From: an uncultured Sphingomonadaceae bacterium
Lineage (GTDB): Bacteria; Pseudomonadota; Alphaproteobacteria; Sphingomonadales; Sphingomonadaceae
DNA: 64,000 nt
Assembly: GCA_913060895.1 (NCBI GenBank)
Contig: CAJXSN010000002.1
Location: 124,001 to 188,000, forward strand
Reading direction: 5' to 3'
Shown here: piece by piece, positions 55,452 to 57,803 of the stretch
Numbering within the stretch: the stretch's first letter is position 1
Layout: each line of letters opens with the position of its first letter
Position numbers and translations under genes: made by a program
Notes under the pieces: model-generated
What the model was told of the DNA's origin: nothing
What the model saw: the letters and a program-made list of their open reading frames with translations, nothing else
Databases searched by the model: none

Positions 55452-56855
55452 CTAGTCCTGCGAAGTCCGGCCTCCACCGCCGCCACCGCTGCGCCGGCGA
55501 TTGCCGCCACCGGAGCGACCGCCGCCAGACCGGCCACCACCCCCTTGGCCGCCGCTCTGACCGCCGCCTTGGCCGCCGCGGTTTGGCCGGCCGGCGCGTG
55601 ATGTGTGCTTGCGCTTGGGCGCGCCGTTCTTTGGCTTGGCCTGAACACGGCCGCGCTGCTGCTTGGGCGCAGGTTTGGTCGGGCCGACACCTTCCACAAC
55701 CGCGCGGAAATTTTCCGGCAAAGGCAGACGCTCGAACTCGGCATCCGTGGTCTTGTTGATGTCTTTCAGATACTGACGCTCGTCCTCGGCACAGAACGCA
55801 ATCGCGATCCCGTCCTTACCGGCACGCGCGGTGCGCCCGATACGGTGGACATATTGCTCCGGCACATTGGGCAGTTCGTAATTCAGCACATGGCTGACAC
55901 CCGGAATATCGATCCCGCGTGCAGCGACATCCGTCGCCACCAGAACCTTGACCCGGGCGCTTTTGAAATCATCCAGAGCGCGCTGGCGCTGTGGCTGGCT
56001 CTTATTACCGTGAATGGCGTTGGCGCTGATATTGGCCTGCGCCAGCTTCTTCACGATCCGGTCGCAACCATGCTTCGTGCGGGCAAACACCAGCACACGC
56101 TCCAGCTTACCGGGCGTTTCGTACCGGCCCGACAGGACCATCTCCAGCAGCGACTGCTTTTCGTCCTGCTGGACCATTATCAGATACTGGTCGATGCGCT
56201 CTGCGGTGGAGGCCGCAGGCGTGACGGAGACCTGCACCGGATTGGTCAGATAGTTCTTCGAGAGATCCTTGATGCTGGTCGGCATGGTGGCGCTGAACAG
56301 CAGGGTCTGGCGATCGGCGGGCAGCATCGGAACGATGCGCTTCAATGCATGGATAAAGCCGAGGTCGAGCATTTGATCCGCCTCGTCCAGCACCAGAATT
56401 TCCACGCTGCCAAGATTGAATGCCTTCTGGTCGATCAGATCGAGCAGACGGCCCGGTGTCGCCACCAGAATATCGGTGCCGCGGTGCAGCTTGTTCCGGT
56501 CCTTACCCACGGACGTGCCGCCGACGATGGACTGGACCTTCAGGCCCGCCATCGCGCCGTATTCACGGCTGCTTTCGGCAATCTGACCCGCCAGTTCACG
56601 GGTTGGGGCCAGCACCAGCATGCGGCAGGATTTGAACGGTGTCTGATTGTCCGCATCGCGCAGATTGTCGATGCTGGGCAGCATAAACGCCGCGGTTTTA
56701 CCGGTGCCGGTCTGGGCAATGCCCAGCAGATCGCGGCCCTCCAGCAGATGCGGGATCGACTGCTCCTGAATAGGGGTCGGCGTGGTGTAGCCCTTGAGAT
56801 CCAGCGCCTGACGGACAGGCTGCGACAGACCGAGCTGGTCGAATGTTTTTGTCAT
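55452..56855 (-). CDS. rhlE: DEAD-box RNA helicase (RhlE type)
   Basis: A 467-residue RNA helicase with the Q motif in YTTPTPIQEQSIP, Walker A AQTGTGKT (47-54), PTRELAGQ, DEAD (157-160), SAT (188-190) and HRIGRTARAG. The C-terminal 90 residues are basic and Gly/Arg/Ser-rich with repeated RSGGG units, suggesting non-specific RNA binding and a role in ribosome assembly, mRNA turnover or cold adaptation. The ATG at 56855 is where similarity begins. The upstream region carries a palindrome, listed separately. Confidence 0.93.
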   Translation of the reverse strand: MTKTFDQLGLSQPVRQALDLKGYTTPTPIQEQSIPHLLEGRDLLGIAQTGTGKTAAFMLPSIDNLRDADNQTPFKSCRMLVLAPTRELAGQIAESSREYGAMAGLKVQSIVGGTSVGKDRNKLHRGTDILVATPGRLLDLIDQKAFNLGSVEILVLDEADQMLDLGFIHALKRIVPMLPADRQTLLFSATMPTSIKDLSKNYLTNPVQVSVTPAASTAERIDQYLIMVQQDEKQSLLEMVLSGRYETPGKLERVLVFARTKHGCDRIVKKLAQANISANAIHGNKSQPQRQRALDDFKSARVKVLVATDVAARGIDIPGVSHVLNYELPNVPEQYVHRIGRTARAGKDGIAIAFCAEDERQYLKDINKTTDAEFERLPLPENFRAVVEGVGPTKPAPKQQRGRVQAKPKNGAPKRKHTSRAGRPNRGGQGGGQSGGQGGGGRSGGGRSGGGNRRRSGGGGGGRTSQD

Positions 56856-56942
56856 GATATGTGTATTGAACTCGCAATATAGATGCGGCGCGCTAGCGGC
56901 GATCCAACACGGATTCCGGGCGCGGCGCGGGGGTAAGGGCAA

Positions 56943-56967
56943 CCCATGAAAGTATTACTTTCATGGG
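56943..56967. repeat. perfect 11-bp-arm palindrome upstream of rhlE
   Basis: CCCATGAAAGT, ATT, then ACTTTCATGGG form an exact inverted repeat, 88-112 bases before the rhlE start. It could be a protein operator or a hairpin in the rhlE leader RNA. No T-run follows on the rhlE strand, so it is not a plain terminator there. Confidence 0.7.
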
Positions 56968-57133
56968 ACCCGAAGGATAACCACCCGCGTGAAAAGGGAA
57001 GTCTGGGAAAATAGAACCGAGAGGCTGCCGGGGCTTGTAGCGTGTCTCGCTACCGCCGCTTCACGCTGGCGGGCGTCTCGATAGTTGGCATATGGTGCAA
57101 TGCAGCGGGAAAGTCAAAGGAACCCTACTTTGC

Positions 57134-57220
57134 TTGACACTTTTGACACTGTGTCAACCAAGATATTCGGCTTACATATCTGATATCACTTGAAATAGCT
57201 CTGATGGATTTAATTGACAC
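57134..57220. promoter_or_regulatory. cluster of TTGACAC boxes including a perfect palindrome
   Basis: TTGACAC occurs at 57134-57140, 57143-57149 and 57214-57220, and its complement GTGTCAA at 57151-57157. The second and third sites form the perfect palindrome TTGACACTGTGTCAA (57143-57157), the size and symmetry of a TetR-type operator. The TTGACA also equals a -35 hexamer, but I see no convincing -10. The regulated gene is unclear: rhlE lies 279 bases leftward and the hairpin region lies to the right. Confidence 0.45.
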
Positions 57221-57224
57221 ATTC

Positions 57225-57350
57225 TCTCTCCGATGGCCTGCGGGAGCTGCAGAAAGGCATCGGCCCGATCGGGTTCGTTATATCCCAGACACCGCTCTGT
57301 AGGACAGCGAAACCCGGTTTCAGGCGCTTACGGTGCCGAACGGTTTTTCC
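57225..57350 (+). ncRNA. candidate structured RNA ending in a terminator, family unknown
   Basis: Consecutive hairpins lie on the plus strand with no supported reading frame: CCGATGGCCT pairing with AGGCATCGG (57230-57263), the self-complementary CCCGATCGGG (57264-57273), CGCT.TGT pairing with ACAGCG (57293-57309), and a terminal stem followed by TTTTT. This suggests a small RNA of roughly 125 nt. I compared it by eye with 6S RNA, SRP RNA, tmRNA and RNase P features and found no match. The 5' end and promoter are not defined. Confidence 0.3.
57314..57348 (+). terminator. terminator-like hairpin in the long intergenic region
   Basis: CCGGTTTCAGGCGC and GTGCCGAACGG form an imperfect stem with core GGCGC/GTGCC and loop TTACG, followed by TTTTT (57344-57348). 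The T-run is only on the plus strand. Confidence 0.5.
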
Positions 57351-57420: not shown

Positions 57421-57453
57421 CACCGTTCGTCCTGAGCTTGTCGAAGGACGCGC
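57421..57453. repeat. left inverted repeat flanking the GIY-YIG pseudogene (REP-like)
   Basis: CACCGTTCGTCCTGAGCTTG and the following TCGAAGGACGCGC form the left arm. Its complement matches the right copy at 57770-57803 with one substitution and one inserted G. Each copy also contains an internal imperfect palindrome (CGTCCT...AGGACG), like REP elements. The repeat is of the type scattered through sphingomonad genomes. Confidence 0.75.
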
Positions 57454-57474
57454 ACCAACGGTAGAACCAAGAGA

Positions 57475-57762
57475 ATGGCCTTCCACACCTACATACTGAG
57501 ATGCAATGACGGCTCTTACTACACTGGCCACAGCGAGAATTTCGAACTGCGCATAGCCCAGCACTAGGCCGGAGGAACCGGAGGCTACACCGCCGTTCGC
57601 CGCCCGGTGACGCTGGTGTGGTCAGACAGCTTCCCTACCCGCGAGGAAGCGTTGTCCGCAGAACGCCGTATCAAAGGCTGGACCCGCGCCAAGAAGGAAG
57701 CGCTGATACGCGGCGACTGGGAGGAAATCCGGCGTTTATCCAGGAACCGGCAAAGTGACTAA
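57475..57762 (+). pseudogene. GIY-YIG nuclease family gene with premature amber codon
   Basis: A 96-codon frame with one internal TAG at 57565-57567. It encodes MAFHTYILRCNDGSYYTGHS (the Y-[IL] and Y-[YT]-G pair of the GIY-YIG fold) and, after the stop, AGGTGGYTAVRRPVTLVWSD and EALSAERRIKGWTRAKKEAL, the conserved second half of UvrC-like/YhbQ small nucleases. Relatives have Gln or Glu after AQH, so CAG to TAG is the simplest explanation. It lies wholly between the inverted repeats at 57421 and 57770. A sequencing error or stop readthrough is possible. Confidence 0.82.
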
Positions 57763-57769
57763 AGTCAGC

Positions 57770-57803
57770 GCGCGTCCTTCGACAGGCTCAGGACGAACGG
57801 GTG
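57770..57803. repeat. right inverted repeat flanking the GIY-YIG pseudogene (REP-like)
   Basis: GCGCGTCCTTCGACAGGCTC and the following AGGACGAACGGGTG form the right arm, seven bases past the pseudogene's final stop. It is inverted relative to the left copy. Together the arms and the enclosed frame form a cassette of about 380 bases. The remaining 72 bases to the pgi stop hold nothing recognisable. Confidence 0.75.

Follow-up and report, generated by a model that had tools for sequence, protein, structure and literature searches.

Two inverted copies of a 31-base repeat enclose a reading frame of the GIY-YIG nuclease superfamily at this locus (Table 1; coordinates are those of the window, meaning the whole 64-kb stretch of DNA that was analysed). 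An earlier note made from the sequence had described a GIY-YIG frame between inverted REP-like repeats, and both arms and a Pfam match were indeed found. The core of the repeat, GTCCTTCGACARGCTCAGGAC, is present with 0 mismatches on the reverse strand in the left arm and on the forward strand in the right arm; the scan of the 64-kb window gave no third site with up to 3 mismatches allowed, and none appeared in 100 shuffles. An inverted-repeat search extends the arms to 57423-57464 and 57759-57800, which are 86% complementary. The frame scores 67.5 bits against Pfam GIY-YIG (with the internal stop taken as X), and no further domain was found in its 95 residues at E values up to 1. Its best homologues from other genera show 64-70% identity, and for its homologue L014 the only solved chains matched were the UPF0213 structures 1zg2 and 1ywl. 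The frame comprises 95 codons, internal stop included, plus a TAA; as the in-frame TAG falls at codon 31, the 96 codons claimed earlier do not represent an intact gene, and this copy is a pseudogene. The TAG may be an error of the draft sequence.

Table 1. Features of the locus, in window coordinates
Feature	Position	Strand	Remarks
Left REP arm	57423..57453	+	Tag CCGTTC outward; core GTCCTGAGCTTGTCGAAGGAC at 57429-57449
Right REP arm, inverted	57770..57800	-	Tag outward; core at 57774-57794
GIY-YIG nuclease pseudogene, Slx1-like/UPF0213-like	57475..57762	+	Pfam PF01541 match; homologues
In-frame TAG	57565..57567	+	Breaks the window copy

The full core occurs at 5 places in the 2.7 Mb draft genome (up to 3 mismatches): two at the window locus, two that form an inverted pair on contig C13, and a single one on C3. 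The inverted partner of the C3 copy, at a distance of 44 bases, has the inner core in common with it but not the outer stem. All three pairs have their tags oriented outward. Few repeats thus remain in this genome, and the nuclease frame is broken. A second GIY-YIG gene (L002; G000 contig C2:189233-189499, minus strand) lies about 1.2 kb past the end of the window; the match is without stops, belongs to the CGTC-associated subfamily and has inverted CGTC REPs on both sides (inverted-repeat score 25). The third small GIY-YIG gene of the genome (L004) has an inverted-repeat score of 9. A further match (L003) was left out as a control because it lies within a 668-residue frame and its flanks are therefore coding.

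A search of the two genus mates for a clean empty site of the window copy gave none. At the corresponding site G002 has a compact intergenic region with neither gene nor REP, and G001 has REPs and another gene but no GIY-YIG. Window positions 56836-57346, upstream of the locus, align with G001 (L194) only as far as a gene that by eye is tspO-like, the 3' end of which was seemingly left in the window. A perfect 12-base inverted repeat with 1 base between its arms is present at 56943-56967, just upstream of a helicase gene.

Pairing of small GIY-YIG genes with inverted repeats

For the pairing test, the 180 bases to the left of each match were aligned to the reverse complement of the 180 bases to its right, with a threshold score of at least 20. 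Inverted repeats on both sides were found by this measure at 99 of 133 Sphingomonadales GIY-YIG loci (27 + 26 + 80, excluding 18 weak or fragmentary matches, some with stops), vs. 0/528 control positions shifted by 750 or 900 bases at the same loci and 0/399 shuffled flanks. The shifted positions are often in coding DNA, and cspA was added as a small-gene control, with 30 loci from 30 genomes, nearly all of which have a GIY-YIG gene and repeats; one locus was too near a contig end, and none of the 29 testable ones reached even 18. The fair part of this control is the 17 matches in frames of at most 149 codons, whose flanks are mostly intergenic; the other 12 are in longer frames, so that, given also the coding shifted positions, the totals overstate the number of controls that represent small intergenic genes. 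The enrichment of repeats beside GIY-YIG genes, which the earlier note had proposed as a check, is thus evident. Eleven genomes contributed further GIY-YIG loci (30 fetched of 39 matches), of which 28 scored at least 20 with 250-base flanks, mostly with CGTC-tagged REPs; two of these 28 are pieces of one broken gene (G270), and the repeat at L145 does not look REP-like.

An in-frame stop is present in 3 of the 133 Sphingomonadales matches, the window copy included, and numerous other bacteria have the gene intact. Residues Y6, Y16, G18, R26, H30 and E63 are conserved in at least 98% of the 123-130 covering rows, and the tyrosines of GIY and YIG and the active-site Arg and Glu that characterize the GIY-YIG superfamily are all present.

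The same arrangement recurs well beyond the order. A scan of GTDB genomes included 80 named loci among the matches listed, five of them too near contig ends; of the 75 testable ones 49 scored at least 20 and 26 fell below, vs. 4/573 shifted control positions. Those that pass come from alpha-, beta-, gamma- and deltaproteobacteria, Planctomycetes and Nitrospira; CGTCATTCCCGCGAAGGCGGGAATCCAG is one example of an arm. When Pseudomonadota genomes were drawn evenly, 81/299 had a relative of the gene at E 1e-10, and 21 of 27 testable loci from this draw pass with 250-base flanks (3 of 30 being too near contig ends); these loci include several sphingomonads, one of which (L326) is already in the Sphingomonadales count. 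From a plasmid collection, 12 of 33 records were examined with 300-base flanks and 10 reached 20, including those of Azospirillum lipoferum, Sinorhizobium meliloti, Novosphingobium aromaticivorans and Neisseria gonorrhoeae; the arms in Planktothrix and Spirosoma are less typical, and Photobacterium sp. GJ3 (8) and Rhizobium tumorigenes (9) fail. Control positions in the plasmid records reached 20 in 5 of 72 cases, all in the Neisseria and Photobacterium records. The earlier suggestion of a repeat-associated class in sphingomonads therefore stands as to the pairing, while its confinement to that group does not, as several phyla are involved.

Most repeats beside genes outside the window subfamily are CGTC-tagged REPs in the literal sense, and those of the distant relatives have the features by which such REPs are defined, namely a CGTC tag, perfect stem, short loop and CCA tail, with the tags outward. 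A scan for CGTC hairpins (stems 7-9, loops 3-6) gave 205 with a CCA tail in 159 loci vs. 4 hairpins with any tail in shuffled loci. These more distant GIY-YIG relatives are presumably COG2827-like.

Repeat types, hairpins and copy numbers

Typed by loop and stem, the repeats of the 133 loci are type A, as in the window (58 loci), type B (32), CGTC-like types C and D (6) or others (11), with none at 26. Types A and B have a common plan of outer 5-bp stem, GA, loop, TC and bulged GA, and the window arm, with its bulged stem, can be written as CCGTTC-GTCCT-GA-GCYTG-TC-GA-AGGAC. In 81 distinct hairpins the outer stem averages 4.12 of 5 Watson-Crick pairs vs. 2.31 when the 3' halves are shuffled, the largest value in 1000 shuffles being 2.72; since pairing exceeds the shuffles while the letters change, the hairpin is maintained. 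The arms had been described as imperfect palindromes, and this covariation over many copies is where the palindromy is visible, not in the folding energy of the present copy: each window arm alone is a weak hairpin (z-scores of -0.36 and 0.13, as DNA), an unremarkable result that was set aside as support. Nested REPs, in which the loop of one hairpin contains a second hairpin (CCGTTCGTCCTGAGTAGCC...GGCGTATCGAAGGA), were seen by eye at L057, L069, L074, L077 and L092.

Repeat type follows protein clade. On a tree of 132 rows the A and B labels require 7 changes over 90 rows, and all six repeat groups require 34, vs. a shuffled mean of 65.1 (0/200 shuffles as low). One clade of 23 rows is type B throughout, and six loci of a divergent clade of family f8 are without such repeats. 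The CGTC types, labelled by pattern for 105 of 149 rows with a few apparently misassigned, require 16 changes vs. 37.7 shuffled, the lowest of 200 shuffles being 31. By their neighbours, 117 close-family loci form 44 clusters, eight of which have two or more loci; 27 of the 32 type B loci are in one cluster of 30 with common neighbours and the trmJ-adjacent group forms a cluster of 26, so part of the agreement between clade and repeat reflects descent of one locus. With one locus taken per neighbourhood (39 typed loci of 44 contexts, the subtype labels having been chosen after seeing the data), 8 changes are required vs. 15.3 shuffled, with 0/500 shuffles as low. Paralogues within one genome differ in repeat type (G016, G018 and G156). 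In the REPINs of G018 and G016 the spacer ends resemble, by eye, the inner ends of units that bear a gene and belong to the same subtype.

A motif search placed a trmJ-like gene just downstream of 22 of the 117 close-family loci, L018, L020, L054 and L074 among them, and in some such cases the two form one long open frame. A GIY-YIG to SPOUT methyltransferase fusion reported in Erythrobacter (PMC1564403, available in part) is probably this same neighbourhood. That paper also mentions a GIY-YIG insertion in HsdR of Methylococcus.

Counts of the inner core CTTCGACARGCTCAG in 297 genomes gave at least one copy in 169; a reversed control pattern gave 4 matches altogether in all listed genomes. The most copies in a REP-rich genome is 290. 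The median is 39 copies in genomes where an A-flanked gene is present (n=46) and 0 in genomes where the gene has no close relative (n=218); at least 10 copies are present in 55/79 genomes with a close relative vs. 32/218 without, though the genomes are related and P values are nominal. The anticipated relation between repeat number and gene presence thus holds in that genomes with the gene have more copies, with those 32 as exceptions. The 12 richest of them were examined for GIY-YIG matches: in G270 the A-type gene is broken into two pieces, which lie between A-type repeats; in ten the GIY-YIG genes are distant ones only, almost always next to repeats of other types; and the genus mate G001, with 83 core copies, has no match at E 0.001. 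For such repeat-rich genomes lost genes must be assumed.

RAYT was considered as a general driver of these repeats and rejected, since Y1 (RAYT-type) genes are present in only 4 of 20 REP-rich genomes and five tested of ten Y1 matches have no such repeats beside them. The nuclease gene itself is present in a few copies per genome and the dispersed repeats are numerous, often as inverted pairs (REPINs), so the term REPtron fits better than the "small mobile cassette" first suggested.

Sites with and without the gene-repeat unit

In A. lipoferum the GIY-YIG gene lies between sufB and sufC with a CGTC REPIN on either side; in A. ramasamyi, A. oryzae and Azospirillum sp. B510, sufB and sufC have neither gene nor REPIN between them. 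Sphingobium TomMM7A has a gene-repeat unit between fnrL and a response regulator; at this site one fused palindrome is present in TomTYG64 and in TomTYG74, and TomTYG72 has neither unit nor palindrome. The unit of S. meliloti Ak57 adjoins, by eye, an internally deleted copy in which the two repeat ends persist, an illustration of how REP pairs without a gene can come about; in Sinorhizobium C101 a fused palindrome occupies the site of this unit (also by eye). The gene type of one further locus (G301) has a different position in six of the 58 other genomes of its genus, in five of them on another contig of a draft; among the 59 genomes of the genus, G301 included, the locus is whole in only one other (G604), with flanks too divergent for exact ends. 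The expectation that the position would vary between relatives, with some sites lacking the unit, was thus confirmed in Azospirillum, Sphingobium and Sinorhizobium and within one genus.

As to target-site duplications and precise ends, three presence/absence sites were compared, and the ends are hidden by intergenic divergence. Fused double-tagged palindromes were considered as excision footprints and not retained: perfect ones are rare (4 strand-wise matches at two sites, vs. 205 CCA-tailed hairpins in 159 loci), and since the palindromic stems make the arms direct repeats of about 20 bp, ordinary deletion explains the fused sites equally well.

The GIY-YIG nuclease as a candidate REP-mobilising enzyme

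The best reading of the gene-repeat pairing, the clade specificity, the stem covariation, the conserved catalytic residues, the repeat numbers and the presence or absence of the unit at given sites appears to be a REPtron in which an Slx1-like GIY-YIG nuclease stands in place of RAYT, with cleavage and mobilisation as activities that we infer. We would assign a probability of about 0.7 to the view that the window locus belongs, in decayed form, to a widespread system of two parts, an Slx1-like GIY-YIG gene and the REP/REPIN, and it seems quite likely that the enzyme drives the spread of these repeats. The system would consist of a stand-alone nuclease gene between two outward-tagged REPIN arms, and further REPs and REPINs of matching type would lie scattered through the genome. 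The nuclease would recognise, and nick or cut, REP hairpins that match its own type. GIY-YIG enzymes hydrolyse DNA without a covalent intermediate, which would leave joining to the repair or replication systems of the host; the simplest route would be for a REPIN to be copied into the break, and REPINs would be the non-autonomous form. The idea in the earlier note that a GIY-YIG enzyme mobilises the repeats holds for the arrangement; mobility of gene or repeat is still presumptive, and the window copy is broken.

The resemblance to RAYT REPtrons is close, as the earlier note had recognised, and recurs in many genomes beyond the level of the controls. There, as here, a small nuclease gene with one or few copies is flanked by inverted REPs and many REPs are dispersed, with type-specific pairing and patchy distribution (PMC3733652, PMC6006769, in their available portions). 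Inverted REPs flanking a low-copy nuclease gene and matching dispersed REPINs, by which a REPtron is recognised, were both found. The RAYT enzyme is a Y1 HUH protein (TnpA-REP), whereas the GIY-YIG enzyme is not expected to use tyrosine chemistry, and the tag is GTAG there and CGTC or CCGTTC/CCGCTC here. The CGTC REPs, which include Neisseria dRS3 and Rickettsia RPE-4/6, have the same form as the repeats flanking the distant relatives; the window repeat, with its CCGTTC tag and bulged stem, is not literally CGTC. Di Nocera et al. (2013; PMC3733652) described CGTC REPs in five phyla, and the part of that paper available associates no transposase gene with them, apparently leaving them without a dedicated enzyme; here a GIY-YIG gene lies between them.

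Prokaryotic Slx1-like GIY-YIG proteins (UPF0213), which we take to be COG2827 as well, are a minimal GIY-YIG domain, as is the window frame. Slightly favoured, on balance, is the broader proposal that these nucleases are the missing mobilising enzymes of CGTC REPs and the related CCGYTC-tagged sphingomonad REPs, forming a second, independently evolved class of REPtron that works by structure-specific cutting and host repair.

A different view would make the gene a homing-type parasite, a selfish GIY-YIG gene that invades REPINs spread by other means, with the REP as its homing site; gene and REP type could then match without the gene causing the spread. Homing endonucleases with this catalytic domain family are known as mobile genes (PMC1564403, in part), the gene occupies the position of a REPIN spacer, the nested REPs of L057, L069 and L074 look by eye like a REP inside a REP loop, and some sites have one fused palindrome where the unit stands elsewhere. 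Perfect fused palindromes are too rare to resemble a standing target, however, and no other carrier of the REPs was found, the Y1 genes being as sparse as described above. Known homing endonucleases lie in an intron or intein and have an extra DNA-binding domain of the NUMOD type; the window frame has PF01541 only and is flanked by hairpin repeats. We regard this explanation as unlikely.

It is quite unlikely that the gene instead has a host function, as a repair-type nuclease processing REP cruciforms, with the adjacent repeats acting as terminators, insulators or in autoregulation. Prokaryotic Slx1-like proteins have been predicted to act in repair (PMC1564403, in part), the subset before trmJ (22/117) would fit such a role and so would the low gene copy number, but the 44 different contexts of the close family, the paralogues bearing different REP types within one genome and the presence or absence of the gene inside the Azospirillum sufB-sufC operon all argue otherwise. 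Chance proximity, whereby any small gene may have a REP on each side where REPs are common between genes, gains a little from genomes with up to 290 core copies and from the few high-scoring shifted controls (4/573 and 5/72), yet it is ruled out, within the limits of those controls, by the shifted positions (0/528), the named relatives and cspA (0/29, or 0/17 in short frames), and the score of only 9 for L004 in the window genome also opposes it.

The nuclease is thus a candidate for the agent spreading a whole class of bacterial repeats. A link between GIY-YIG proteins and REPs was not found in the titles and abstract beginnings of the papers listed from the literature covered (preprints and most subscription journals lie outside it), nor in the available parts of PMC6006769, PMC1564403, PMC5082802 and PMC12306157; Slx1-like GIY-YIG proteins had been predicted to be related to repair, restriction or RNA, with no REP link in the available part of that account (PMC1564403). 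With a specific candidate enzyme, and a matching repeat type for each protein clade, the question of the CGTC transposase becomes testable. If the proposal is correct, it would represent a case of convergence on the RAYT-REPIN system, would extend to orphan repeats known for a long time, among them Neisseria dRS3, and would define a REPtron class whose gene has relatives in 81/299 sampled Pseudomonadota genomes and in other phyla. It would also point to a role for a common family whose annotation goes no further than 'GIY-YIG nuclease family protein' or 'excinuclease ABC subunit C'.

At one locus (L013, in G028), five type A repeats in the same direction lie about 65 bases apart beside the GIY-YIG gene, with two on the opposite side. 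The gene frames at L015, L016, L017, L021 and L024 continue into the repeats, with tails including GPSTSSG, LRQAQDER, RPSTSLGT and PFDKLRV, and database proteins may carry such REP-coded ends.
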